Shown piece after piece: positions 13,449 through 27,024 of a stretch of DNA of 45,657 nt (position 1 is the first letter of the stretch; each line of letters opens with the position of its first letter). Where the stretch lies: contig CAIJPN010000200.1 of the NCBI GenBank assembly GCA_903822545.1, positions 1-45,657 on the forward strand, read 5' to 3'. The position numbers were made by a program, and so were the translations under genes. The DNA is from an uncultured Anaerolineae bacterium. Lineage in GTDB: Bacteria > Chloroflexota > Anaerolineae > Anaerolineales > Villigracilaceae. The notes under the pieces were generated by a model. It saw nothing but the letters and a program-made list of their open reading frames with translations, did no database searches and had not been told where the DNA came from.

Positions 13449-13491
13449 AAATTTTACGGCGACCAGCCGCAGGGCGGTCGCCGTAAAATTT
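13449..13491. terminator. Large palindrome between convergent genes
   Basis: AAATTTTACGGCGACC (13449-13464) pairs perfectly over 16 bp with 13476-13491; three more pairs (13466-13468 with 13473-13475) form after one bulged base, leaving a GCAG tetraloop. It is A/T-rich at the base on both strands, so it can end both the amidohydrolase and the kinase operon transcripts. Confidence 0.7.
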
Positions 13492-13527
13492 TCCAGTGTA
13501 GTGGGTAGATGATGGGTAGTGTAAAAC

Positions 13528-16500
13528 TCAAGGTTTGACAACAAATTCCCATGTTCCAAAAGCAGGGAGGGTGACGAGAGACGAGACTACAGCAATTTCA
13601 AGTTTATACGCGCCAGATTTCATACGTTTGGTTTGCTCGGGAGTAAGGCTCAGTTTCCAGGCGCCGCTGCTATATATGACTGTGCCGCTGGTGAGAAGTT
13701 GGCGGGATGGGTCGAACACCAGGTATTTTACATTCTGGATATCTGCTGATGGGTAAGGCTGGCCTTTGAAGGTGATCTGCACCTGGAAATCGACCTGGCT
13801 GCCGATTTTGATGGATGCCGGCCCATTGAGGGTCACTTCTGGGATCATCGGCTCGGCGAAAACCATCCAGCGGTCGGCTTTGTCAGAAAAATTTGTGTTG
13901 CGCTTGAACGCCAGGCTGGATTCGGTGGTGTAAACCCGGTCGAGGTAGAAGGGGCCGGTGCCAACCCAAAAGTGGCCGTGCTGGTTGTACCATTTTTGCA
14001 GGTTGGCGTAACGATTTTTAGCGTCAGCGGCGGTGATGTATTTGCCGAGAGTGGTGGCGTAGGGAATGTAGCCCTGGGCGGCTGCGCTGGTCAGTTCTTT
14101 TTGCAGGATTGCCAGGCTGGGTCCGCTGATAAAGCTCATCCATTCGATTTTCAGGTCGGCGGCTTTATCGGTGGAAAAGGCCAGGTCTTTGGCGGTTTCG
14201 GCTTTGATACCGATGGCGATGTTGTGCCAGGGAGCCTGTCCATATCCATATTGCGGCCACCAGTCGGTCGCCATTAATTCAGCATCCAGGCTGTAAGCAT
14301 CTGAGTACGTTTCGATGATCAGTGGAGTGGTGGAGATAATGCGCACACCTTTGAAGACTGACATGAACGATTCAAGCGTGTAAGCTGATGATTCATCATA
14401 GATGGCAGATGCGGGTTTGGCGCGGTCAAAGGTCATGATCATGCCCATCACAAAATCTGCCACACTGAGCGGGCTGCCATCGTGCCATTCCTGGCGGGTG
14501 AACAGGTCGGCGGGATAGGTAACCACCCGTTTGGTCAGGGCGGTCAGGCCTTGCGGGTATTTTTGCCCGACGGTAATGAAAGTCTGTTTTTGGGCGTCCC
14601 AATCGACCCAGGCATCTTTGGGGACGGTAATGGATCCAGTTTTGCGCAGGGTCACCCAATCCAGGGTTTGGGTTACAGGTATAGTGTTTAAGACGGTAAT
14701 TTCAGCTTTTTCGATGCGCTGCGGCCAGGCCAGGCCAGTGTATGGGTCAGAAACTGTGCCGTAGTCTTCGGTGGCGCGCCGGGGCATGGTGTCATAGATC
14801 CAGTTGCTACCGGCTACCGGGTTCCATGGTTCGACCAGGATGCCGGGCTGGGCGATTTTGAGCGTACCACCGATCTGATCTGTGAATCGGGCAGTGAACG
14901 GCCATAGCTGTGTCCCAGAGATTCCGCCCGCCAGGTCATAGGCGATTGCGATGTTTGAGCGGAAGGGTGAAAAGGATATCTGGTCGATCAGCCACAGGCG
15001 GGAGGAGTCTTCCATGCTCAGTGTGAGGGCTTCGATAAAAAGCTGGTCGCGTTCAGCCAGGCTGTTGAACTGGTTGTTCCACAGCTTTTCAGCGACATCC
15101 TTGAAAGCACTGGAGGGTTTGTAAGCCTGCCAGAGTGGTGAACCGCCACCTAACGGGGTGTAGAAATAAGCAAAATTGGTGCCATCGTCGCGCGAGATGG
15201 CGGTTGTGATCCATCCGCCGGTGTAAAGGTGCCATTGGCCTGTTTGGGGGTCAGAGCGGTTCCATATGGGGGAAGCTTCGGAACGGGTTTTGTACTGCCG
15301 GTCAACCGTGAAACCAAGATCTTCCAACTGGTTGGCAACGTAATCTCCGATTATTTTGCGGTTATCCTCGGTGCGAATGAGGAAGATGATCTTCACTGGC
15401 GAACCGTTGTAGGTGAATTTGCCGTTCGAACCCACGCTTGCGCCCATTGTTTTCATCTCTGCGGTGATGATTTGTTTGGCCGCACCGGGATCGTACCCAT
15501 AATTCACTTCGAGGCTGCGGATGGTATCTACGTAGCGGACATAATCCACAAAAGCCGAGTTGACGGCGGTGTAACGGGGTTTTGCCAGGCCGCCATAGAT
15601 TTCCTGGGCAATATAATCACGGTCAATCAGCATGTTCATCGCCGCGCGGATTTTGGCGTTGCTGAATGGATTCAGTCGCCCATCGCTAAATTTAGGGCCA
15701 GATGGGTTGAAAGTCAGCTCGGTATATGAGCCAAGCGAGTTGGAGTAACCCAGGCTGGCATCCTGGCTGATGGTTTTGAATATGCCTGGATCGGCGACTG
15801 AGTAAGCATATACATCAATATCACCAGATTTAAGCTGCGCAGCTGCCTGGTCGGCCTGGTCGATGCTGCTGAAGTGGATTTCATCTACCCAGGCACCGTT
15901 CGGAGCCGGGAGCGATGTGGCCGTGGGGGGAGCGGCAGGTTCTACGGCAGCCTGGGTGGGTGTGGATTGCGTTTCCCCGGTGCTGGCAACGGCCTCGGTC
16001 AGGGTAACCGGTGTTCGGGTGGGGATTTCCTTTCCAATATTCGATAGTAAGAACACACCCGCAACACCTGCGGCCAGGAACCCGAACAGGGTCAGACCAA
16101 TGAAAACGACAATTAAACTGTTAGCGGATGGTTTTTTGGGGCCAGATGCTGTTTTTTGGGCAATTGGCGGAGCCACCGGGCGGGCAATGGACTGGGAAGG
16201 CGGAACCTGCCCGGGGCTGGATTCCGATTTGGGTTTTGGCGGCGGCATCGATTCTGGCAAGATGGTTTGGAATTCCTGCACGCGGGCTGGCTCGTGGTGG
16301 ATACTGGCAGGCAGGTCAACCGCAGTGCGGTCATCCCTCCGCGGCTGGATGACCGGCGCTGGCGCTACCGGTTCGCGGATAAGACGGGCCAGCGTGGATG
16401 CGAACTCTTCCATGCGCTCAAAGCGCTCTTCCGGCTTTTTGGCCAGGGCACGCAACAAGACCATTTCCACGCTGCTGGGCAGGTCAGGCACGAACTGTCG

Positions 16501-17208
16501 CGGGTTGGGCAGCGGCTCGCTGGCATGTTTGAACAGCACTGCCATAGGGGTATCGGCCACAAATGGCCTGCGCCCGGTGATCATTTCATAAAAAACCACG
16601 CCGAGCGCATAAATATCAGCGCGGTGATCGACTGTTTTAGAGATGACCTGCTCAGGGGCCATATATTCAGGCGTGCCAACTGTTGCGCTCGTTCCGGTCA
16701 GGTCAACGGTGGCTTCTTCGTCGATAATTTTGGCGATGCCGAAGTCAGTTAACATGGGCTCGCCATCTTCGGTGATCAGGATATTGGACGGTTTGACATC
16801 GCGGTGGATCATGTTCTGGCGGTGGGCATAATCCAGCGCGCGGGCAATGGGAATCAACAACTGGGCGGCATCCTGCCAGGGCATCGGCCTGCCGTTTAAC
16901 ACCTGTTTCAGCGTTCCTCCGGGCAGGTAGGGCATCACCAGGTACGGACTGCCTTCATATTCGCCATAATCGCTGACTTTGACGATATTCGGATGGGTTA
17001 ATTTTGCCAGGGCCTTGGCCTCGCGCTCAAAACGCTTCAGCGCCTTTTCCACCCCACTCTGTGGCAGGTTCTCAGTGCGGATCACCTTGACGGCCACATC
17101 ATTTTCCAGGCGGGTATCAAAAGCCTTGTAGACAACCGCCATGCCACCCTCACCCAACTGCCCGGTGATTTGATATCGTCCAAAAGTCTGTCCGATCATA
17201 TTGCTCAT
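13528..17208 (-). CDS. Ser/Thr protein kinase fused to SBP_bac_5 solute-binding domain
   Basis: 1226 residues from ATG 17208 (GAGAGGAG 5 nt upstream). Residues about 11-275 are a complete Hanks-type kinase: GEGGMAVVYK (19-28), Lys41, HRDVKPSN with Asp137, DFG at Asp155 and a GTPEYMAPE activation segment. A Pro-rich juxtamembrane stretch leads to a membrane helix at about 364-389. A Thr/Pro spacer follows, and from about 430 to the end lies a family-5 (peptide/oligopeptide-type) ABC solute-binding protein, seen in NPFSNAKIRAAMNMLIDRDYI, IFLIRTEDNRKIIGDYVANQL, YDLAGGISG and EWHDGSPLSVADFVM. The kinase would be inside and the binding domain outside, making it a candidate peptide or solute sensor. 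It is the last gene of a three-kinase operon, 11 nt after its neighbour, and ends before a large palindrome. Confidence 0.93.
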   Translation of the reverse strand: MSNMIGQTFGRYQITGQLGEGGMAVVYKAFDTRLENDVAVKVIRTENLPQSGVEKALKRFEREAKALAKLTHPNIVKVSDYGEYEGSPYLVMPYLPGGTLKQVLNGRPMPWQDAAQLLIPIARALDYAHRQNMIHRDVKPSNILITEDGEPMLTDFGIAKIIDEEATVDLTGTSATVGTPEYMAPEQVISKTVDHRADIYALGVVFYEMITGRRPFVADTPMAVLFKHASEPLPNPRQFVPDLPSSVEMVLLRALAKKPEERFERMEEFASTLARLIREPVAPAPVIQPRRDDRTAVDLPASIHHEPARVQEFQTILPESMPPPKPKSESSPGQVPPSQSIARPVAPPIAQKTASGPKKPSANSLIVVFIGLTLFGFLAAGVAGVFLLSNIGKEIPTRTPVTLTEAVASTGETQSTPTQAAVEPAAPPTATSLPAPNGAWVDEIHFSSIDQADQAAAQLKSGDIDVYAYSVADPGIFKTISQDASLGYSNSLGSYTELTFNPSGPKFSDGRLNPFSNAKIRAAMNMLIDRDYIAQEIYGGLAKPRYTAVNSAFVDYVRYVDTIRSLEVNYGYDPGAAKQIITAEMKTMGASVGSNGKFTYNGSPVKIIFLIRTEDNRKIIGDYVANQLEDLGFTVDRQYKTRSEASPIWNRSDPQTGQWHLYTGGWITTAISRDDGTNFAYFYTPLGGGSPLWQAYKPSSAFKDVAEKLWNNQFNSLAERDQLFIEALTLSMEDSSRLWLIDQISFSPFRSNIAIAYDLAGGISGTQLWPFTARFTDQIGGTLKIAQPGILVEPWNPVAGSNWIYDTMPRRATEDYGTVSDPYTGLAWPQRIEKAEITVLNTIPVTQTLDWVTLRKTGSITVPKDAWVDWDAQKQTFITVGQKYPQGLTALTKRVVTYPADLFTRQEWHDGSPLSVADFVMGMIMTFDRAKPASAIYDESSAYTLESFMSVFKGVRIISTTPLIIETYSDAYSLDAELMATDWWPQYGYGQAPWHNIAIGIKAETAKDLAFSTDKAADLKIEWMSFISGPSLAILQKELTSAAAQGYIPYATTLGKYITAADAKNRYANLQKWYNQHGHFWVGTGPFYLDRVYTTESSLAFKRNTNFSDKADRWMVFAEPMIPEVTLNGPASIKIGSQVDFQVQITFKGQPYPSADIQNVKYLVFDPSRQLLTSGTVIYSSGAWKLSLTPEQTKRMKSGAYKLEIAVVSSLVTLPAFGTWEFVVKP

Positions 17209-17219
17209 GGTCACTCCTC

Positions 17220-19193
17220 TCACGGCTGCCAGACAGGCGCACCGGCTTCTTGCTGATAATCGAGAAGGGTTTTCCAATTGGCATCACCGGGGTTGAAGAT
17301 GTCCATAATAAAGATACCAAATGGGCCTTTGATGCCGTTTGGGCTTTCCTGGAAAACGATCCGCCTGCTGTCAGGAGCCCAGGTGGCGTTTTTGCATTCA
17401 CGCCCACTGGTGATGGTGTGCGGATTACTGCCATCTGCATTCATCAACCAGAGCGCGTCTGTATCATCACAATAAACACCATACAATATCATACTCCCAT
17501 CGGGGGAGTAATACGAGATGCAACCGCGCGCCAATTCCTGCACAGCGCTGCCATCAGCGCGCATGGTGTAAATGAAATATTTGCCCGTGCGGTTTGATGA
17601 AAACGTAATCATCTGCCCATCTGGCGACCAGCTTGGGTGCCAATTATTCTGCCCCGAGCTCTTGGTCAACTGCTGTCGCCCACTGCCATCTACCCGGATT
17701 TTATAGATTTCCCGGCTGTCTTTCTCTCCATCGCAATTAGAGTGAAAAACCAGCCACCTTCCATCCGGCGACCATACCGGGCCAAAATCATCACATGAAT
17801 TGCTGGTGATGGTGCCTGTTTTGCGCGTTTTGATATCAAGAACTGCCAGCTCAAAATCGCCGCCCTCGTTGGTTTGGTAAACCAGTTGCGTACCGTCTGG
17901 TGACCAATTGGGATACATATCGTGAGCGCTGCTGGTGGTCAGGCGGGTGCTATCCAGCCCATTGATGCGAACCATATACAGATCGTAGTTGCCCTGTGCG
18001 TTAGTTTGGTAGGCAATCCAGCCGTCACTCGATTCGCTGGGAACAGGAATTTCTGTCGGCGGGGCGGTGGGGATGGAACGAGTGGCTGTTGGCCGGGCAG
18101 TTGGTGTTCCATCCGCCCTGAAAGTTGCCACCGGTTCGACAGTTGCGCCTGCCTGGGGGCTGATCCCCGCTGCTGGTGTTGAAAACAACTTCCAGGCCAG
18201 CGCCAGGCTAAGACCAACCGCGCAAAGCGCTACCAGGCTGAACCCACCCACAATCCAGGCCAGCGGCCATCCCTTGCGCGCCGGGGCAGCCAATGGCGGC
18301 GGGACGAGTGGCAGGCTATCTGCCACAGTTGCCTGGTCGAGCGGGGAAACCGTCACGGGGCCGCCAGCTTGCAGGTTTTCCAGCGCCAGTGCCAGGGCGG
18401 GCATATCAGGGTAGCGGTTGCTCGGGTCGTAGGCCAGCGACTTGATCAGGATGGTTTCCACTTTTCCCGGCAAATCAGGCACATATTGTGTTGGACGCGG
18501 CAGTGGTTCCCTGGCTTTTTTCAGGAGCACAGCCATGGGCGTGTTGGCTTCATAGGGGCGGCGGCCCGTGACCATTTCATAAAAAACCACGCCCAGCGAG
18601 TAAATATCAGAGCGTTCATCAGCGCTGCCCATGCCCTGCTCGGGGGCCATATATTCGGGCGTGCCGATGCCTACACCGGTGCCGGTCAGTTCGAGTGTTT
18701 CTTCATTCTCCAGTAGTTTGGCAATGCCAAAATCGGAGAGCAGCAATTGCCCGGTATCAGAAAGCAGGATATTGGCAGGTTTAACATCGCGGTGAATGAT
18801 TTTGTGCTGGTGGGCATAGGCCAGGGCGTTGGCAATCGGCAGCAGCAGCCTGACAGTTTCGCTCCAACCCAGTTTGCGGTTGCGGATGTGATTTTTGAGC
18901 GTGCCGCCAGGGATGTACTCCATGACAAGGTAGGGGATTTCATCTTGTTCGCCATAATCGAGCACGCGCACGATGTTGGGGTGGCTAAGCTGCGCCAGGG
19001 CTTTGGCTTCACGCTCGAAACGCTTTGAGAATTGCAGTGAATGTTCTTTGCCCGGCAGGATGATCTTAACGGCCACATCGCGCTCCAGGCGCAGATCGTG
19101 CGCGCGGTAGACCGCTGCCATTCCGCCTTCACCCAGTTGTTCGAGAATGTGATAACGCCCCAGGGTGCGCCCGATCAGGTTATAAAGTGCCAT
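17220..19193 (-). CDS. Ser/Thr protein kinase with extracellular TolB-type beta-propeller
   Basis: 657 residues. The kinase domain covers about 14-275 with GEGGMAAVYR (21-30), Lys43, HRDVKPAN with Asp136, DFG at Asp154 and GTPEYMAPE. A membrane helix is at about 311-336. After a Thr/Pro-rich spacer, 388-657 form a TolB/PD40 propeller: repeated (N/V/S/Y)(W/Y)SPDG motifs appear at least four times plus a degenerate WAPDS, with NADGS or RADGS turns between. The propeller would face outside and bind a ligand or partner. It starts 12 nt after the stop of the FGE-domain kinase and ends 11 nt before the SBP kinase. Confidence 0.94.
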   Translation of the reverse strand: MALYNLIGRTLGRYHILEQLGEGGMAAVYRAHDLRLERDVAVKIILPGKEHSLQFSKRFEREAKALAQLSHPNIVRVLDYGEQDEIPYLVMEYIPGGTLKNHIRNRKLGWSETVRLLLPIANALAYAHQHKIIHRDVKPANILLSDTGQLLLSDFGIAKLLENEETLELTGTGVGIGTPEYMAPEQGMGSADERSDIYSLGVVFYEMVTGRRPYEANTPMAVLLKKAREPLPRPTQYVPDLPGKVETILIKSLAYDPSNRYPDMPALALALENLQAGGPVTVSPLDQATVADSLPLVPPPLAAPARKGWPLAWIVGGFSLVALCAVGLSLALAWKLFSTPAAGISPQAGATVEPVATFRADGTPTARPTATRSIPTAPPTEIPVPSESSDGWIAYQTNAQGNYDLYMVRINGLDSTRLTTSSAHDMYPNWSPDGTQLVYQTNEGGDFELAVLDIKTRKTGTITSNSCDDFGPVWSPDGRWLVFHSNCDGEKDSREIYKIRVDGSGRQQLTKSSGQNNWHPSWSPDGQMITFSSNRTGKYFIYTMRADGSAVQELARGCISYYSPDGSMILYGVYCDDTDALWLMNADGSNPHTITSGRECKNATWAPDSRRIVFQESPNGIKGPFGIFIMDIFNPGDANWKTLLDYQQEAGAPVWQP

Positions 19194-19205
19194 AAAAACG
19201 TTCTC

Positions 19206-21026
19206 CTATGGCGCGTCGAGCGCGCAACGGAAACCAACCGTATCGACAGCTTCATCCGGTTTCAGGCTGGCGCGGGCGCTGGTGCGCAATCCATCTACCA
19301 GGCTCGACCAGGAGCCGCCGCGAATGCCTTTGCGAGTGCCAAAATCGGGGCCAAGCGGGTTTTCCAGTGGTGATTGTTTGTAATACTCAATGGCGTAGTT
19401 ATCGTTGACCCATTCCAGCGCGTTGCCGGCCATATCTAAAATACCGTATGGGCTGGCACCCTCGGGGTAGCTGCCCACGGCCTCGGTATCGCCATGTCTG
19501 AAAGCAGCGCGCCCAATGGCATCATCGCCATTGTTGCCCCAGGGGAACAGGCGCGCATCTTCGCCGCGCGCCGATTTCTCCCATTCGGCTTCGGATGGCA
19601 GGCGCGCCTTGGCCCATTTACAGTAATTGGCGGCATCTTGCCAGGTGACGTAAAGCACCGGGTAAGTGCTGAACTGGGTGTTGCCAAAATAGCTTTTGCG
19701 CTGGCGCGAGCGTGGCAATTCTGGGCGGCGGCAGGCTTTGGCATCCACACAGGCCTGGTACATCACGTTGGTCACCTCGGTCACATAGATATAAAAAGCT
19801 TTCAGGTAAACGCGGTGAATGGGTTTTTCTGCGCCCCAAAAATAGGGATCCGTTTTCTCATCGCTGCCCATGGTGAAATCGCCCTGCGGGATAAGGATCA
19901 TGCCTGCGCCATCTGCCGGGTTGATTTCGCGCACATAGACGGGGGCGCTGGTGGCGGTCGGTGCGCTGGTGGCGGTCGGTTTGGGGGTGGAGGTTGATTC
20001 GGGTGTAAAAGTCAGCGTGGGGGCGAAGGTGGCGCTGCTGGTGGGGGCGAGTGTGCTGCTCGGTGGGGAAAAGGCTGGGAAGCGCACATCTTTCAATAGG
20101 AAAAATCCGCCCAACATGCAGAGCAGTGCCAGGATGGTGGCTGCGCCAATCCCCAGGCAGGCTATTGGAAGTTTGGGGGCCGGGGCAGGCGGCCGGGCAG
20201 TTTCTTCGGGTGCCAGGCTGCGCAAGGCCTTAATAAATGCTTCCATACTCTGGTAGCGCTGGTTTGGGTCGCTGGCCAGCGCGTGCAGGATGGTGGCATC
20301 CACTTCGCGCGGCAGCCCGCGCACCAGCTGCGAAGGCGGGGTGAGCGGCTCGTTCATCTTTTTGAGCATGATGCTCATGGGTGTGTCGGCTACATAGGGG
20401 CGGTGGGCCGTGATCATTTCGTAGAAAACCATGCCCAGGGCGTAAATATCCACGCGGAAATCGGTGATTCCCAGCCCCTGTTCGGGGGCCATATAGGCCG
20501 GGGTGCCTACGCCCATGCCGGTTCCGGTCAGTTCGGTGGATGATTCATCATCCAGCATTTTGGCAATGCCGAAGTCAGAAAGCATGGGCTGACCGCGTTC
20601 ATCGAAAAGGATGTTGGCAGGTTTGATATCGCGGTGGATAATATCGCGGTGGTGCATATAGGCCAGCGCCTGCGCGATCGGAATAATCAATCGGGCCGCC
20701 TCACCCCAGGGGATGGGCTGGCGCATCCTGTCTTTGAGTGTGCCGCCAGGCAGGTATTCAAGTACGAGGTAGATAACCCCACCCTGTTTGCCGTAATCGA
20801 GTACGCGTATGATGTTGGGATGGTTGAGTCCCGCCATGGAGCGGGCTTCACGCTCGAAGCGTTTGAGGAACTTCTCAGAATGCTGGTGCTGCGGCAGGAT
20901 AACTTTGATGGCGACATCGCGCTGCAACTGCGTATCGCGCGCGCGGTAAACTGCTGCCATGCCACCCTCGCCAAGCAGTTCAACGAGCAGGTAGCGCCCA
21001 AGTGTTTGTCCGATCAGGTCAGGCAT
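19206..21026 (-). CDS. Ser/Thr protein kinase with extracellular formylglycine-enzyme-fold domain
   Basis: 606 residues. The kinase covers about 11-270: GEGGMAAVYR, Lys41, HRDIKPAN with Asp133, DFG at Asp151, GTPAYMAPE. A membrane helix is at about 287-311, then a Thr/Pro/Ala spacer with a short APTATS repeat. Residues about 365-606 are an FGE-sulfatase (SUMF1-type) domain: MILIPQGDFTMGSDE, EVTNVMYQACVDAKAC, RLPSEAEWEKSARG, LDMAGNALEWVND, RGGSW and VGFRC. Between RGGSW and VGFRC the paired catalytic cysteines of true formylglycine-generating enzymes are absent, so this is likely a binding or sensing domain. GAGGG is 5 nt before the ATG. It is the first gene of the three-kinase operon, divergent from an FHA protein. 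Confidence 0.94.
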   Translation of the reverse strand: MPDLIGQTLGRYLLVELLGEGGMAAVYRARDTQLQRDVAIKVILPQHQHSEKFLKRFEREARSMAGLNHPNIIRVLDYGKQGGVIYLVLEYLPGGTLKDRMRQPIPWGEAARLIIPIAQALAYMHHRDIIHRDIKPANILFDERGQPMLSDFGIAKMLDDESSTELTGTGMGVGTPAYMAPEQGLGITDFRVDIYALGMVFYEMITAHRPYVADTPMSIMLKKMNEPLTPPSQLVRGLPREVDATILHALASDPNQRYQSMEAFIKALRSLAPEETARPPAPAPKLPIACLGIGAATILALLCMLGGFFLLKDVRFPAFSPPSSTLAPTSSATFAPTLTFTPESTSTPKPTATSAPTATSAPVYVREINPADGAGMILIPQGDFTMGSDEKTDPYFWGAEKPIHRVYLKAFYIYVTEVTNVMYQACVDAKACRRPELPRSRQRKSYFGNTQFSTYPVLYVTWQDAANYCKWAKARLPSEAEWEKSARGEDARLFPWGNNGDDAIGRAAFRHGDTEAVGSYPEGASPYGILDMAGNALEWVNDNYAIEYYKQSPLENPLGPDFGTRKGIRGGSWSSLVDGLRTSARASLKPDEAVDTVGFRCALDAP

Positions 21027-21055
21027 CGCATCCCTCGCAAAACGGTATAATTTTC

Positions 21056-21085
21056 AGTATATAATATTTTTGAAACATCCGTCAA
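21056..21085 (-). promoter_or_regulatory. Promoter of the three-kinase operon
   Basis: TTGACG at 21085..21080 and TATACT at 21061..21056 with 18-nt spacing, about 30 nt before the first kinase ATG. Two TATAAT hexamers on the plus strand (21046-21051 and 21060-21065) lie in the same A/T-rich stretch and could serve the divergent FHA gene, but without a good -35. Confidence 0.6.
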
Positions 21086-21151
21086 ATGACAAATATCATG
21101 AAAGCCGTGCTTTAATTTTGGGATTTGTAAGTGGGTAACGCTGGAGTAATC

Positions 21152-21853
21152 ATGCACATACAGGCTTTTTCCTGTTTATTGGCAAATTCTTTACCACCCA
21201 TATCTTTTTTTGCCGTTTCGATGGATGTTTGGCTGGCTGCCGGGTCTGGATTTGTGCTGTTGGTCGGTATTTTCGGTTGGCTCACCCGTCGGAAACAAAA
21301 ACAGGAAAAAGATGCCGCGCGTGAGCGTCTCTGGCAGGAAACCGTTCACGGCGGCGAAAGCACCGTGCCAGATGTCACCATCAGCGATAATACACTGCCA
21401 ACGCCAGATACCAGCCAGGGCGTTTTTGGGGTGTTGACCGTGGTGACCAGCGATAATCCGCAAACCATCGGCCAGCGTTTTGAGATTACCAAACCAGTCA
21501 CACGCCTGGGGCGCAAAGCTGATAATGACATCGTCTTTCATAAAGACAGCCCGGTTTCGCGCCATCACGCCGTCATCGATGAGCGCGGTGGGAATTTGCT
21601 TTTTAGCGAAGTTATCACTCTTGAAGATGGCCAGCCCCGGCGGCCGGTTTATGGCACCTTTGTAAACGAAAAACCACTCGACAGTCCGGTTTTTCTTAAA
21701 AATGGTGACCTGTTGCGGCTGGGGAAGCGCGTGCGGCTGCGCGTGGATGGGCTAAAAGTGGTTGATGACTCAACGGCAGTGATCACTGAATCCACTTTTG
21801 TTGAAGATCAGACCACCAACCTTTCTGGGCATGTGCAAAAAGGAAAGATTTGA
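21152..21853 (+). CDS. Membrane-anchored FHA-domain protein
   Basis: 233 residues from ATG 21152, preferred over a GTG at 21131 because TGGAG lies 5 nt upstream. An N-terminal membrane helix (about 25-43, VWLAAGSGFVLLVGIFGWL) is followed by a basic, charged stretch. The FHA domain spans about 90-200: TRLGRKADNDIVF, SPVSRHHAVIDE, YGTFVNEKPL and LKNGDLLRLGKRVRL. FHA domains bind phosphothreonine peptides, the product of Hanks-type kinases, and three such kinases are encoded divergently from the same intergenic region. It is inside the cell by the positive-inside rule. The C-terminal tail is Thr-rich (TAVITESTFVEDQTTN) and could itself be a kinase target. Confidence 0.9.
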   Translation: MHIQAFSCLLANSLPPISFFAVSMDVWLAAGSGFVLLVGIFGWLTRRKQKQEKDAARERLWQETVHGGESTVPDVTISDNTLPTPDTSQGVFGVLTVVTSDNPQTIGQRFEITKPVTRLGRKADNDIVFHKDSPVSRHHAVIDERGGNLLFSEVITLEDGQPRRPVYGTFVNEKPLDSPVFLKNGDLLRLGKRVRLRVDGLKVVDDSTAVITESTFVEDQTTNLSGHVQKGKI

Positions 21854-21895: not shown

Positions 21896-22999
21896 TTAAC
21901 TGGCATGGTATAACTCCCTGATTTTTTCGCGCCAGGATGGGTTGGAGAGCAGGTCGGTGTTATCGCTGAACTGGTCGAGGCTGCCAATCAGTGGCAGGGC
22001 GGCGATGGCTTTGACCTGCGGGTCGGTGATTTGTGCCAGCAATGCCCCAGAAAACCCGTGAAAGCCGATCACCTGGAAGGGGCGCCCCCAGAACAGGCAG
22101 GTTTGTTCTGGCAGGGGGGCGGTCAGGCCGAGGGCGTTGTGTTTGCGGGCCAGGAACTCATAGGCAGGGATGAGATGTTTTTGGCGGGTGCGCCAGGTGC
22201 GGGCCGAAAGGGCATTTTTCAGCGTGGGGTAGAGCTGCGGGCCACAATCCAGCCGCTTGAAGGCGCTGCCAAACCATTTGGGGTAGGGCGTGTATTTTTT
22301 TTCCATCAAGAAGCACAGGTTCATCACATCACGCACCAGCCGTGAACCGAGCAGGGCTGAACCGACTTCGTCGCCAACCAGGCCAGCGCGGCCCATCAGG
22401 TGTTCTTCTTGGGCAAGGCGTGCCCAACCGGCAGCCAGCAGGTACAGCCACACATCGCGCGGGTACCAGGCGAAGCGCGCGCGCAGGTCAGCCAGGCCGA
22501 TGTCATCGTGGTAGATGGCGCCAGCCAGGAGGGTTTGTAGTCTTTGGGATGGGAAACTCAGCCAGTCAGCGGGAGAGGGTGTATCAGCCGGGTCAAAAGC
22601 CAGTTGTTCAGATATAAATTGCCGGGGCGATTGGATGGTCACGCGGTGGTTGATCGGGCCTGTATCAATTTCCCGCAGGTGCTGGACGCCGTTGTCGTTG
22701 GGATCCGGTTCCGAAAAGTGGGTGGAGTATCCACAAAAACGGTAGGGCAGGTTTTGGGCCAGCGTGGCGCGGATGGCAGCCGCCTGGGGTAAATCTTTTT
22801 CCTGCACGAAGAGCATCACGCGCGGCCCCCAGTGATGATCACGCGACATGGCGGTATCGAAACCGAGCACTTCCGAGCCTTCGCCGAGCAACGCGGCGCT
22901 GTGCGCCAGGTTGGGGAAGTGTTCCAGAAGCAGTGGGCGCACGGCCTGGCGGTAGAAATCACCGCACAGTTGTAAACCGGGGATGAATTTTGGTTTCAT
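21896..22999 (-). CDS. DUF4037 protein (nucleotidyltransferase-like N-terminus)
   Basis: 367 residues. The family signature is at the N-terminus: GLQLCGDFY, then LLGEGSEVLGFDTAMSRDHHWGPR (38-60). The GS...D...SRD arrangement (Gly41-Ser42, Asp48, Asp54) resembles nucleotidyltransferase-fold metal sites. Function is unknown. Its ATG overlaps the stop of the hybrid histidine kinase by four bases (ATGA at 22999..22996), so the two are translationally coupled. Confidence 0.85.
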   Translation of the reverse strand: MKPKFIPGLQLCGDFYRQAVRPLLLEHFPNLAHSAALLGEGSEVLGFDTAMSRDHHWGPRVMLFVQEKDLPQAAAIRATLAQNLPYRFCGYSTHFSEPDPNDNGVQHLREIDTGPINHRVTIQSPRQFISEQLAFDPADTPSPADWLSFPSQRLQTLLAGAIYHDDIGLADLRARFAWYPRDVWLYLLAAGWARLAQEEHLMGRAGLVGDEVGSALLGSRLVRDVMNLCFLMEKKYTPYPKWFGSAFKRLDCGPQLYPTLKNALSARTWRTRQKHLIPAYEFLARKHNALGLTAPLPEQTCLFWGRPFQVIGFHGFSGALLAQITDPQVKAIAALPLIGSLDQFSDNTDLLSNPSWREKIRELYHAS

Positions 23000-25900
23000 A
23001 AGTGTTTTTCGATGTGATTGGCCAGGTCTTGCAGGTGGATGGGTTTGCTCAGGTATTCATCTGCTCCGGCGGCCAGGCATCTTTCGCGGTCGCCGGGCAT
23101 GGCCAGGGCGGTGACGGCAATGACGGGCACGCTGGCCAGTTGATGGTTGGGGTGAGAGCGCAGGCGTTTGAGTGTTTCCAGACCGTCCATATCGGGCATC
23201 TGGATGTCGAGTAGCACGATGGCAGGCATGATCCCTGGTGCGCGATGGAGAAAATCTTGTCCGCTGCGGCAGGATATCACGTGAAAATTGCGGGTTTCGA
23301 GAAAATCACAAACGGTGATGATGTTGATTTCGTTGTCATCAACCACCATGACCGTGGGTTTGTAGGCCGAATTTGTGGCCGGCTGCTCGGTTTGAGCGCG
23401 CAATCCCAGTTTGTTTTGAACGCGTGACAGGGCTTCGCGCAGGTCTGGCAGGGTAAAAGGTTTGTTGATGCAGCCAAAAGCGCCCATTTCTGCTGCGCGG
23501 TGGCTATCGAGCACCAGCGAGGTTACGATGACGGGGATGTGACGGGTTTCCAGGTTGTTGCGCAATTGCGCCAGGGTGTCGATTTCCGGGCAATCGTTGG
23601 AATCGATGGCGAGTAAAATGAAATCTGGCTGGTACTGGAGGGCGGTTTCAATGGTTTTGTTGCTTCTCGCAACAGCAGACTGGATGTTGAGTTGTTTCAT
23701 GTAGTGGCTCAGCCGCTCTTCATCCACGTAATTGTCTTCCACAATCAGGGCGCGCTGGTTATGCGGTAGGGTTGTCGTGCTGGCGTTTTTTGTTTCAGGC
23801 GGGATGGTTGCCAGCACCACTGTGAAGCGGCTGCCCTGCCCGGGCGTGCTTTCTACCTGGATGCTGCCACCGTGCAGGTCTACCAGCCGCTGCACCAGCG
23901 CCAGCCCCAGCCCGGTGCCACCCTGTTGGCGGGTCAGGCTGCTATCCAATTGGACAAACGGCTGGAAGAGTTTTTTGAGATCTTCGGTGGAAATGCCGAT
24001 GCCGTGATCCCAAACTGTCAGGTGGATGAGCCGGGCTGCTTCATCGGTTGTTACTTCCAGCCCGAGTTTGCTTTTTTCGGGGCTGTATTTGACGGCGTTG
24101 CTAAGCAGGTTGACCAGAACCTGTTTCAGGCGGCGCATATCTCCATTTACATAAGCAGATTCTGGCTTCATCGAAAACTCAATCTGCTGCTGTTTCTTTT
24201 GGGCCATGCCTTGCACAAGCTGCAAACTGGCCTGGCAGGTATCACGTATCGAGCAGGGTTGAATTTGAAGGGCCAGTTTGCCCACGTTGATTTTGGAGAT
24301 GTCGAGGATGTCGTTGATCAGCTCCAGCAGGTGCCGGCCACTGTTTTCGATGTGAGAAAGGGCTTTGAGCTGGCGTGGGTTCAATTCTCCATAGGTGTTG
24401 AATTGCAGCGCTTCCGAAAGCCCCAGAATGCCGGTGAGCGGGGTGCGCAGTTCATGGCTCATGCTGGCCAGGAATTCATCTTTGATGCGCAAGGCGCGCT
24501 CCAGTTCCAGGTTGGCGCGGCGCAATACTTCTTCGGCCTGTTTGCGGGTGGAAATATCGCGGGTGATCACCAGGATTTGTTCGCTCTGTCCGAGTTTGAT
24601 CACGAAAATGCGGCTCTCCACATTGCGAACCATGTCGTCGCGGCATTTAATTGGATAATCTGCCGAAAAGAAATTTTCGCGGTTCTCGAGGGATTTTTTG
24701 AACCCCTCGCGGAAACTCTCTTTAATTTCTGGGGTTACCAGGCCGAGTTCTGTATCTGTTTTCCCAACCATTTCCTCGCCTGGGATTTTTGTCAGGTACT
24801 CATAGGCGCGGTTTACCCGCAAGAATTTGCCGCTGCGTTCCATCAGTGCGATGGCATCTGGCGCTTCCTCGAAGAGCAGTCGATTTTGCGCTTCGCTTTC
24901 ACCCAGGGCCATTTGGGCGTGTTTCTGTGCATCAATATTGACCGAATAGCCGATAATCTCAGATGGCTCGCCAGTATTGCCGTGAAGCAGGTTTAATCCC
25001 GAAGACATCCAAACATATTCGCCATCAGCCTTCCGGACGCGATTTTCCAGGGTGGCAAACCCGTTTTTTACCAGTTCCTGCAAGGCGTGCTCACTTGCTC
25101 CCAGATCGTTGGGGTGTATCTGACTCATCCACAGCCCTGGGTCTTCGATAAACTGCCAGGGTTCGTATCCCAAAATATTACGAACCGCTTCGCTGATGAA
25201 GGTCGGCTGCAACTGTTGACCCATGCGCGCGGTGAAAATCATGGCTGGTGTGTGGCTGAACATAAAGTTCAGGCGCGCTTCGGATGCGCGCAGGGCCTCT
25301 TCGATTTCTTTGCGCTCATTAATATCTTGCAGAATGCCAACCGACCCAATTGCCCGGCCCTGTTCATCCACCACCTGCACCGATGTGTCGGCCAGCCAGC
25401 GCTGCCGGCCATTTTTGCAACGGATCAGCAAATCACATCGCCAGACGATCTGGGGTTGGACCTGCCCGTTGCGCACCTGCTCGGCAGCCTCATTCAGGGT
25501 TAAATTGGACAATTCGCCGCGTGCGATGCCATCGATTGTGATGCTACTTAACAGGCCGGGGGTTAATTCTTCGGGGCGATAACCGGTAATGCGCTCGATG
25601 CCTTCGTCTATGAAGGTATAGCAGTCTGAGAGATAATCTCGGCTGTAGGGGATTGCATCAGCTGCGGCAATGGTTTTGCGATAACGCTGCTCACTTTCGC
25701 GAAGGGCACGCTCAGCTTGCTTGATTTCGGTTATATCCAGCATGGTGGCGCGGCTCATGACAAAGTTGCCCTGTTCATCATAGATCGCAGTCGAGTTAAC
25801 CAGTGCCGGGAAGGTGGAACCATCTTTGCGAATGAATTCCATTTCAATATCTTTCAGGCTGCTGGTTTGCTTGAAGTGGGCAAAATTGCTCGCAAAGGTG

Positions 25901-26934
25901 ATCCGGCTTTTGCGGGTGATAAAGTTGATCAGGGGCTGTCCAAGCATTTCCTCGCGGGTGTAGCCCAGCCAGGTCAATTCTGTTTGGTTCACCCTGGCAA
26001 TATTGCCATTGGCATCCAGCGAATGATAGCCGGTGGGCGCATTATCATACAAATCCTGCACTTCAGCCGTACGCTGCTGCACATGTTGTTCCAGTGAGCG
26101 GTTCAATTCGAGCAGGTTGTTCTGGGTGATCTTGAGTTCGGTAATGTCGGTGGCTGTGATCATGGCCATGGTGGCATTGCCACTGGCATCATGGACCGGT
26201 AAAACACTGGTTCGATACCAGTTGGCCCCGGTGGTGGTTTCGGTTGTCAGGCCCTGTTTGCTGGAGATGACTTGTCGTGTCCAGCCCAGGTAACGGTCGG
26301 CGATTGGTTTGGGCAGCAGTTCCTGCAGGCTTTTGCCTATCACCGCCGCAGCTGGTTTGGATTGGTAGCGGGCTGCTTTTTCGTTGGCGAATTGGCAATA
26401 GCCATTCCAATCCAGCACCGTGATCATGGCATCGGTGGCCTCCATCAGGGTGCGATACAGCTCCTCGTTGCGGCGCAGATCTGCATCTGCGCGTTTGTGC
26501 TCGCTGATATCGCGCACAATGGCCCACATACTTTCGGGTTGGCCGTGCTCATCGCGCACTAAGAAAGCATGCAGGTTGATCGGGAAGATGCTGCCATCTT
26601 TGCGGCGGTATTCCTTTTCATACAAATCTGAAAATCCACGCGCCATCACCTGGGTGCGGATGATTTCCATTTCGATGGCGTGCCATTTTTCGGGGGTCAG
26701 GTCCTGGTAAGTCAGTTTGTCCAGCTCTTCATCCGAATACCCCAACATTTTTCGGTAAGCTTCATTGCGGTCGAGCAATTTCCCATCCAGTGAAACACGC
26801 ACAAAACCATCGCTGGTGTTATCGTATAAGTACCGATAATAACCAATCTGTTTTTGGGATCGTTCTAATTCTGCGATGCGTTGGTTGGCGGCATCCAGCA
26901 TGATTTGTAGTTGGCTGGTGTTTTTTCTTGACAT
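22996..26934 (-). CDS. Hybrid histidine kinase, six PAS domains and two receiver domains
   Basis: 1312 residues from ATG 26934, with TGGAG 6 nt upstream; the longer frame to 27015 lacks support. After a coiled coil, six PAS/PAC units lie at about 32-148, 160-270, 293-407, 415-545, 552-672 and 684-797. HisKA follows with His827 in SHELRTP, then an ATPase domain with NLLSNAVKYSP, DHGIG and GGTGLGLALV. Receiver 1 (about 1060-1175) has lost the phosphoacceptor: FILLAIDSND has Ala1109 where Asp is expected. Receiver 2 (about 1193-1312) is canonical with VVDD, Asp1243 in LLDIQMPDMDG and SKPI. There is no membrane segment, so it is a cytoplasmic sensor. No separate output regulator is adjacent; DUF4037 is coupled downstream. 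Confidence 0.95.
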   Translation of the reverse strand: MSRKNTSQLQIMLDAANQRIAELERSQKQIGYYRYLYDNTSDGFVRVSLDGKLLDRNEAYRKMLGYSDEELDKLTYQDLTPEKWHAIEMEIIRTQVMARGFSDLYEKEYRRKDGSIFPINLHAFLVRDEHGQPESMWAIVRDISEHKRADADLRRNEELYRTLMEATDAMITVLDWNGYCQFANEKAARYQSKPAAAVIGKSLQELLPKPIADRYLGWTRQVISSKQGLTTETTTGANWYRTSVLPVHDASGNATMAMITATDITELKITQNNLLELNRSLEQHVQQRTAEVQDLYDNAPTGYHSLDANGNIARVNQTELTWLGYTREEMLGQPLINFITRKSRITFASNFAHFKQTSSLKDIEMEFIRKDGSTFPALVNSTAIYDEQGNFVMSRATMLDITEIKQAERALRESEQRYRKTIAAADAIPYSRDYLSDCYTFIDEGIERITGYRPEELTPGLLSSITIDGIARGELSNLTLNEAAEQVRNGQVQPQIVWRCDLLIRCKNGRQRWLADTSVQVVDEQGRAIGSVGILQDINERKEIEEALRASEARLNFMFSHTPAMIFTARMGQQLQPTFISEAVRNILGYEPWQFIEDPGLWMSQIHPNDLGASEHALQELVKNGFATLENRVRKADGEYVWMSSGLNLLHGNTGEPSEIIGYSVNIDAQKHAQMALGESEAQNRLLFEEAPDAIALMERSGKFLRVNRAYEYLTKIPGEEMVGKTDTELGLVTPEIKESFREGFKKSLENRENFFSADYPIKCRDDMVRNVESRIFVIKLGQSEQILVITRDISTRKQAEEVLRRANLELERALRIKDEFLASMSHELRTPLTGILGLSEALQFNTYGELNPRQLKALSHIENSGRHLLELINDILDISKINVGKLALQIQPCSIRDTCQASLQLVQGMAQKKQQQIEFSMKPESAYVNGDMRRLKQVLVNLLSNAVKYSPEKSKLGLEVTTDEAARLIHLTVWDHGIGISTEDLKKLFQPFVQLDSSLTRQQGGTGLGLALVQRLVDLHGGSIQVESTPGQGSRFTVVLATIPPETKNASTTTLPHNQRALIVEDNYVDEERLSHYMKQLNIQSAVARSNKTIETALQYQPDFILLAIDSNDCPEIDTLAQLRNNLETRHIPVIVTSLVLDSHRAAEMGAFGCINKPFTLPDLREALSRVQNKLGLRAQTEQPATNSAYKPTVMVVDDNEINIITVCDFLETRNFHVISCRSGQDFLHRAPGIMPAIVLLDIQMPDMDGLETLKRLRSHPNHQLASVPVIAVTALAMPGDRERCLAAGADEYLSKPIHLQDLANHIEKHL

Positions 26935-27024
26935 TAGATACTCCAGGCGCGGCTTTGGTGTGAGATGGAAATGCTCATGAGGATGCAACCTTGCATAAGG
27001 CCTGGGCAATCTCATACCCTTAAT

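Follow-up and report, generated by a model that had tools for sequence, protein, structure and literature searches.

An uncultured bacterium of the Anaerolineae (Villigracilaceae) carries, in the 45,657 nucleotides (nt) of contig CAIJPN010000200.1 analysed here and called the window, an operon of three genes for membrane-spanning Ser/Thr kinases, KinA, KinB and KinC, which run leftward with gaps of 11 and 12 nt, and, facing them across a shared intergenic region, a gene for a membrane-bound FHA protein. The locus is best read as a reduced form of a modular system of Anaerolineae that joins several sensor kinases to an FHA protein, in which one group of kinases would combine with interchangeable sensors and act through one shared membrane FHA protein, and the probability of this reading is put at roughly one half. 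The idea of a single system gains real support from related genomes, and a corresponding wiring is predicted from the sequence for the window.

The three kinases and their outer modules

KinA, KinB and KinC score 175-179 bits against the Pkinase profile of Pfam, and each keeps the glycine loop, VAxK, HRDxKxxN, DFG and APE that define Hanks-type kinases. In all three, an N-terminal kinase domain is followed by one strong membrane helix in the hydropathy profile and by a large outer part. Open reading frames, Pfam matches, motifs and hydropathy bear out what the original prediction, made from the letters of the sequence, had described: three complete kinases in one leftward operon with gaps of 11-12 nt, distinct outer modules after the membrane helix (an FGE fold, a TolB propeller and a peptide-type solute-binding protein, SBP), and an FHA protein with a membrane helix, encoded divergently across the same promoter region. 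The added claim that the kinases share nearly the same inner architecture holds for the kinase domain and fails for the cytoplasmic linkers, which are of unequal length (9, 34 and 85 amino acids, aa, after the aligned domain).

Across the genome, 24 Pkinase matches exceed the Pfam cut-off, the three window kinases among them. A kinase tree was computed from 94 domains, namely the three of the window, 19 others of the same genome and 72 of relatives; a filter on length and score left out two own kinases (C146:28133 and C29:33680) plus three below the Pfam cut-off, and one relative's row, a cut copy of another, was removed. A branch with support of 99/100 splits 65 rows, made up of the three window kinases and 62 of relatives, from 29 rows that include all 19 other own kinases. 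Since the tree is unrooted and its midpoint falls inside the side of the window kinases, the 65 rows are termed a group and not a clade, and the relatives' kinases had been sampled by likeness to KinA, KinB or the FHA gene, a choice that biases the tree towards joining them to the window kinases. The mutual identity of the three window domains is 56.5-59.5%, and none of the other own kinases in the tree exceeds 49.1% identity to them, so that the proposed comparison with the other kinases of the genome finds them to be close relatives. Six kinases of the group (L076, L077, L087, L088, L090 and L092), mostly with an FGE outer part, lack the HRD triplet at the position scanned and may be atypical.

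The set had been thought to be built by duplication and domain swapping, of which the second part stood and a recent local triplication did not. Forcing the three window kinases into one clade costs 80 log units and is rejected by the approximately unbiased (AU) test (p=0.0038), which rules against a recent triplication or a single joint origin, and KinC is 76% identical to a kinase from another genus (G101) whose outer domain is Peripla_BP_6. KinA and KinB, which the best tree joins as sisters with weak support (78/29), may be a local pair. When the outer-domain label is followed over the kinase tree, it changes 11 times among 40 labelled group kinases with five states, for a minimum of 4; 200 label shuffles gave a mean of 18.7 changes, and no shuffle went below 15. 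Inheritance thus accounts for part of the distribution of outer parts, and swapping has been frequent. On these comparisons, the outer modules have evidently been exchanged repeatedly among the kinases of the group, and the three of the window, to judge from their relatives, have separate histories.

The history of the KinC module is the most traceable. Of 150 genomes, 70 have matches to its SBP region, the own genome and G047 among them. Among the 22 SBPs compared, its sister is an SBP of the same genome at C13 (63% identity over 800 columns; support 92/99, just below the tool's star), the neighbours of which are two BPD_transp_1 permeases, one of them with OppC_N, and two ABC ATPases with oligo_HPY, a set of the oligopeptide-transporter type. 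The other listed matches lie in frames of at most 990 aa, too short to hold a kinase and an SBP, with the exception of the G047 frame, which is cut by the contig end. Given this kinship with the SBP of an own transporter, capture of an importer's SBP by a kinase is the simplest reading, and a probable one, for KinC, the ligand of which would then be predictable from the importer.

Full-length relatives of KinB were found only in G096, G101 and G112 (54-55% identity, 729-735 bits) in a search that scored up to eight candidates per genome, and the next match, at 387 bits, covers the kinase and linker part. Compared with the TolB-kinases of these three genomes, the TolB parts are 60-61% and the kinase parts 59-61% identical, and KinB may therefore simply be their orthologue; a kinase-domain clade of the four is absent from the best tree and is not rejected (p=0.075). 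The FGE module of KinA falls together (98/88) with one module of G101 that is fused to a kinase and with others, from G029 and G056, whose frames have no kinase match, one G056 row containing an internal stop. The G029 carrier is a zinc-ribbon protein (L093:5394-6620), so that the outer module of KinA is also found on a protein other than a kinase. In the FGE tree, from which rows shorter than 170 aa were omitted, so that of 24 own FGE matches besides that of KinA it holds 9, kinase-fused modules and those in frames without a kinase match are mixed (16 changes, against about 17 in shuffles), and no single fusion event is apparent.

The active site of FGE enzymes has catalytic cysteines; in an alignment to FGE structures, the stretch of KinA that corresponds to the active-site segment has none, and the module is therefore probably a non-catalytic binding fold. 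FGE-fold proteins can be targets of diversity-generating retroelements; this was considered for KinA and rejected, as a template-like copy of the last 245 bases of KinA is absent from the genome (apart from the gene itself, the best match has 30 bases and no aligned stretch exceeds 34). In G112 (L188:16246-18212), a kinase of 395 aa is followed by an overlapping, separate FGE-fold frame, which might be a split sensor kinase or the result of a frameshift.

The FHA protein, its orthologues and their neighbours

A search for orthologues of the FHA gene in 150 genomes returned the own gene and eight others at 105 bits or more, the next match having 43 bits, and a ninth orthologue from another genome (MAG_12) came from the GTDB collection. 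These nine proteins of 637-677 aa consist of a VWA domain, Big_7, a membrane helix and an FHA domain, the VWA domain being recognized by Pfam in seven and by phmmer in G112 and G101. At all nine loci a PP2C gene with a Pfam match lies on the same strand within 36 nt of the FHA gene, and the nearest kinase match is at most 1312 nt away, with a complete or near-complete domain at seven. Six of the nine nearest kinases belong to the group defined by the tree, that of MAG_12 was not placed in it, and G096 and G061 have fragments only; the window kinase next to the FHA gene is likewise a member of the group. Divergent orientation of kinase and FHA gene is seen at four of the nine loci (G034, with two genes between, G101, G061 and G096) and not at five. 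Conservation of the gene set and its order in relatives, proposed as a check on the idea of one system, was thus found in part: a kinase match accompanies every FHA orthologue, the order of the kinases is not kept, and two of the four divergent loci have just a fragment.

Some of these loci, and others in the genome, have features of their own. In G034, a HEPN and nucleotidyltransferase gene pair (L080:2615-3623) separates the VWA-FHA gene from the kinase, and in G096 (L127:11354-14558) the kinase that faces the VWA-FHA gene seems reduced to fragments around a WXG100-type gene. The own genome encodes, at G000:C178 (L132:5953-8702), a 636-aa FHA protein followed by a PP2C, with no kinase match near and with a large front part without Pfam match, and, in one row at G000:C68 (L069:5029-9826), a kinase, a PP2C, a DnaJ-VWA protein and a small protein that matches FHA.

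The FHA domain itself belongs near GarA. Its GR and SxxH (here SRHH) motifs are present in nine of nine aligned sequences, that of the window included. Among solved structures, the top six of 21 matches of the C-terminal FHA profile are GarA, Rv1827 or Mb1858, the last of which we take to be GarA, and the two best-ranking folds for the AlphaFold model of the protein are GarA and OdhI. PknB reportedly recruits GarA via its activation loop, as the title of a 2005 paper has it. In GarA, phosphothreonine binds the protein's own FHA domain (PMC5448819).

In the relatives, threonines in an acidic setting, of the form DRTMD, stand before and after the FHA domain. The linkers and tails of nine FHA proteins hold 18 such motifs, a count that misses one in the G096 linker, against 0.7 expected and with none of 1000 shuffles as high; as the motif was derived from these same sequences, the kinases offer the fairer test. 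In its strict form it lies beside the FHA domain in seven of eight relatives (MAG_12 being outside the set), G077 lacking it, and the tail of the window protein still has a threonine beside acidic residues. The juxtamembrane linkers of 56 group kinases contain the same motif six times against 0.66 expected (0/1000 shuffles) and a looser form eight times against 3.4 (17/1000 shuffles), the linkers counted being those of kinases with a helix within 200 aa (56 of 65 in the group, 9 of 19 own). The motif is also found in the activation loop of 17 of 56 group kinases, KinC among them, and in none of 27 others; loops were located from the HRD motif, by which none was found in nine group and two other kinases.

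A number of observations weigh against the reading of the locus as one reduced but working system. The FHA protein of the window aligns only to the helix and the part after it of the orthologues, the roughly 400 outer residues with VWA and Big_7 being absent, and in terms of its sequence it is a shortened VWA-FHA receptor. With the relatives' proteins as queries, neither a VWA match nor a PP2C gene was found in the window, a PP2C gene being present at nine of nine orthologue loci, and neither the linker nor the tail of the window protein has the strict threonine motif. The canonical NG of FHA domains (listed with the other motifs in PMC1262709) is YG or FG in nine of nine aligned sequences, YG in the window, and the model of the protein is of moderate confidence (pLDDT 72, pTM 0.51). 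None of the window kinases has the linker motif and KinC alone has that of the activation loop; for the linkers of the nine other own kinases the expectation is 0.05, which makes them no control. The 16 loop motifs other than that of KinC are those of G061 and of three genomes that share a genus, and, as the statistics ignore kinship, kinship may explain them. The module is moreover rare and patchy: it occurs in 9 of 150 near genomes, the own one included, and the C-terminal profile matched at an E value of 1e-18 or better in 4 of 396 genomes of a class-wide draw, all of the same family. A scan of GTDB also gave one weak match, in a contig of Planctomycetaceae that has no VWA, PP2C or kinase match. 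The source genus is represented in these comparisons by the own genome alone.

These losses might also mean that the locus is the decaying remnant of a complete VWA-FHA/PP2C/kinase locus, in which the FHA protein has given up its role as a reader and the kinases persist as separate receptors with unlinked targets, a view that we consider rather doubtful. It would account for the missing VWA part, PP2C neighbour and strict threonine motifs, and it would fit the GC content at third codon positions of the FHA gene (52.6%, against 61-73% in seven neighbouring frames), the partial kinase pieces opposite the FHA gene in G096 and G061, of which only the former shows decay, the latter being cut by the contig end, and the 39% identity of the window protein to that of G034, the lowest of eight. 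The 233-aa frame is nevertheless intact and preceded by a good ribosome site, GR and SRHH are kept, and 39% is close to the values of three complete orthologues (40-42%).

Proximity of FHA and kinase genes alone is a weak argument, because other FHA genes of this genome also lie near kinases. The genes of the window might thus be mere neighbours, the kinases having been clustered by duplication or recombination and the FHA gene serving another pathway. Both gene types are common in the genome and sometimes close, and 14 of the 20 loci fetched by similarity to KinA, some of them short contigs and four outside the kinase group, show no match to the FHA queries, nor do L194 and L195. This explanation is unlikely in view of the kinase match at every one of the nine FHA-orthologue loci, with a complete or near-complete domain at seven, and of four further loci with group kinases (L075, L086, L196 and L197) that have, by Pfam, a gene for an FHA-ABC transporter near the kinases.

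Type VII-like secretion genes and layout of the locus

In four genomes (G096, G101, G112 and G061), three of which are of one genus, genes for an EccC-like ATPase and WXG100 proteins lie beside group kinases. The arrays of G096, G101 and G112 have 8, 10 and 5 kinases, respectively, in the stretches read, and also an EccC-like ATPase, WXG100 proteins and YukD-FHA; G096 and G101 also match the FHA-ABC transporter, and G112 has a CHAP-WXG protein. In G061, EccC and WXG100 accompany two group kinases on a different contig from that of the VWA-FHA gene. The own genome has a locus of this type, C29 (G000:C29, L072:1766-13001), with a 1510-aa EccC-like ATPase, two WXG100 proteins, YukD-FHA, a degenerate kinase and an FHA protein with a VWA match by phmmer and none by Pfam. 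An LRR-Roc-COR protein is encoded within the type VII-like kinase array of G112 (L128:14559-17342), with a homologue in the array of G101.

From this association it could be argued that the module controls type VII-like secretion and that the window copy acts in trans on C29, where EccC-like, WXG100, YukD-FHA and FHA genes are found together. Kinases, phosphatases, FHA and vWA proteins are indeed part of published type VII variants of Bacillota and Actinomycetota (PMC11217815). We regard this account as improbable: no EccC/EssC ATPase or WXG100 gene was matched in the window with the relatives' proteins as queries, the module comes without an EccC or WXG100 match in the 19-38 kb read of G017 (which belongs to the genus shared by three of the four genomes above), G077 and MAG_12, and C29 has a degenerate kinase and FHA genes of its own.

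The features of the locus are collected in Table 1. The start of the FHA gene is better placed at the ATG at 21152, with GGAG five bases upstream, than at the GTG at 21131. The promoter-like sites of the intergenic region are consensus matches only; among 15 sites in 10.9 kb, for 6.5 expected from shuffles, two of the three top scorers lie in this gap, one per strand. The hairpin at the end of the operon, which sits between it and a convergent gene, is very stable (-33.3 kcal/mol, z -6.4). Past the FHA gene and a DUF4037 gene, positions 22996-27015 of the window encode a multi-PAS hybrid histidine kinase with two receiver stretches.

Table 1. Positions of the features of the kinase/FHA locus in the window.
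Feature	Position	Strand	Basis and remarks
Inverted repeat, near-perfect; probable two-way terminator at operon end	about 13449..13492	.	
KinC: Ser/Thr kinase, membrane helix, family-5 (oligopeptide-type) solute-binding protein	13528..17208	-	1226 aa; open reading frame and Pfam
KinC outer SBP_bac_5 module	13531..15948	-	Pfam; sister is own Opp SBP at G000:C13
KinC membrane helix, aa 360-392	16033..16131	-	Hydropathy
KinC kinase domain	16417..17175	-	PF00069 match
KinB: Ser/Thr kinase, membrane helix, TolB/PD40 beta-propeller	17220..19193	-	657 aa; Pfam
KinB outer TolB-type propeller	17223..18023	-	PD40 repeats (Pfam)
KinB membrane helix, aa 310-338	18180..18266	-	Hydropathy
KinB kinase domain	18411..19154	-	Pkinase match
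KinA: Ser/Thr kinase, membrane helix, FGE-sulfatase fold	19206..21026	-	606 aa; Pfam
KinA outer FGE-fold module	19221..19907	-	Pfam and alignment to FGE structures
KinA membrane helix, aa 285-314	20085..20174	-	Hydropathy
KinA kinase domain	20238..20987	-	Pkinase match
Shared divergent intergenic region, 125 nt, promoter-like sites on both strands	21027..21151	.	Consensus matches
Membrane-helix FHA protein, 233 aa; shortened orthologue of proteins with VWA, Big_7, membrane helix and FHA	21152..21853	+	
FHA-protein membrane helix, about aa 20-44	21209..21283	+	Hydropathy
FHA domain; GR and SRHH kept, NG replaced by YG	21500..21724	+	Pfam, alignment

Proposed mechanism and comparison with known systems

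In the favoured reading of a shared kinase/FHA system, each outer module, be it the peptide-type SBP, the TolB propeller or the non-catalytic FGE fold, would answer a ligand or partner of its own and favour pairing of the kinases, which would then autophosphorylate in the activation loop and the juxtamembrane region and phosphorylate the threonines that flank the FHA domain. The latter might bind phosphothreonine either in trans, on a kinase, or in cis, on the linker or tail of the same protein, in the manner of GarA and OdhI, and this binding would alter what the membrane FHA protein recruits. In the complete versions of the module, the neighbouring PP2C could reset the state and the VWA domain could give the FHA protein a contact of its own on the outside, and in some genomes the output would probably be the adjacent type VII-like secretion machinery. 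As the VWA part and the local PP2C are gone here, the reset would have to come from a PP2C encoded elsewhere, and the genome has three PP2C_2 matches outside the locus. The term phospho-relay, used in the original prediction, is wrong for such a scheme, since nothing points to phosphoryl transfer along a chain.

One of the closest known counterparts is the GlnH-GlnX-PknG-OdhI/GarA cascade of Actinobacteria, in which an SBP on the outside controls an inner Ser/Thr kinase acting on an FHA switch (PMC9769921; PMC5448819). The two are alike in the SBP outside, the Ser/Thr kinase inside and the FHA domain nearest GarA/OdhI, as known here from sequence and a model. They differ in that KinC joins a family-5 SBP, a helix and a kinase in one chain and in that the FHA protein is membrane-bound; unlike in GarA/OdhI, moreover, the threonine motifs lie on both sides of the FHA domain in the relatives, and they are degenerate in the window. 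A further parallel is offered by the FHA-ABC transporter Rv1747, which pairs with PknF. A structure of Rv1747 (6cah) is among the matches of the FHA profile, and genes for FHA-ABC transporters lie near group kinases in G014, G033, G083 and G091, with matches in G096 and G101, whereas the window has none.

Receptors that join a kinase with an SBP or with an ANF domain have been known since 2005 from Streptomyces and Nostoc (PMC1262709). In contrast to the Glu/Gln SBPs of those receptors, the SBP of KinC is of family 5, is close to that of an own importer and is encoded in an operon with two other sensor kinases. The T7SSc-T7SSj variants of type VII secretion (Garrett et al., 2024; PMC11217815) resemble the arrays of G096, G101 and G112 in the combination of a kinase, a PP2C-type phosphatase, FHA and vWA near EccC/WXG100. 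Here, in contrast, vWA and FHA form one membrane protein, the kinase arrays have exchangeable outer domains, and no secretion genes were matched in the window. That study covers Bacillota and Actinomycetota, and neither 'Chloroflexota' nor 'Chloroflexi' occurs in its text; a smaller number of WXG100 sequences has been noted in Chloroflexota (PMC10765036). A kinase, a PP2C and a standalone vWA gene also form a set in other conflict systems (PMC7159879); PMC3482391 yielded nothing relevant to the module.

No description of a VWA-FHA/PP2C/kinase module in Chloroflexota or Anaerolineae was found in the open-licence literature, which is weak evidence of novelty. The parts are of known kinds; their combination and the traceable capture of a sensor appear new as far as the literature searched shows. 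Taken to its widest, and tentatively, the finding may point to a plug-in type of surface sensing in Anaerolineae, in which a single kinase group, with 1 to 10 members arrayed at a locus and with receptors swapped by recombination, including the capture of importers' SBPs, would act on a single membrane FHA switch that one PP2C resets, and would in some lineages govern a type VII-like secretion that is undescribed for the phylum in the literature searched; the window would then hold a stripped, three-input version.

The locus brings together related cytoplasmic kinase parts and unrelated receptors, one of which is traceable to a transporter that this genome also encodes. If it is true that the shared FHA protein reads all three kinases, this would be many-to-one phosphothreonine signalling in a compact, natural form. 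The relatives, for their part, supply a defined module, made up of the VWA-FHA protein, the PP2C and the kinase array, with which one may ask how the type VII-like loci of Chloroflexota are controlled.

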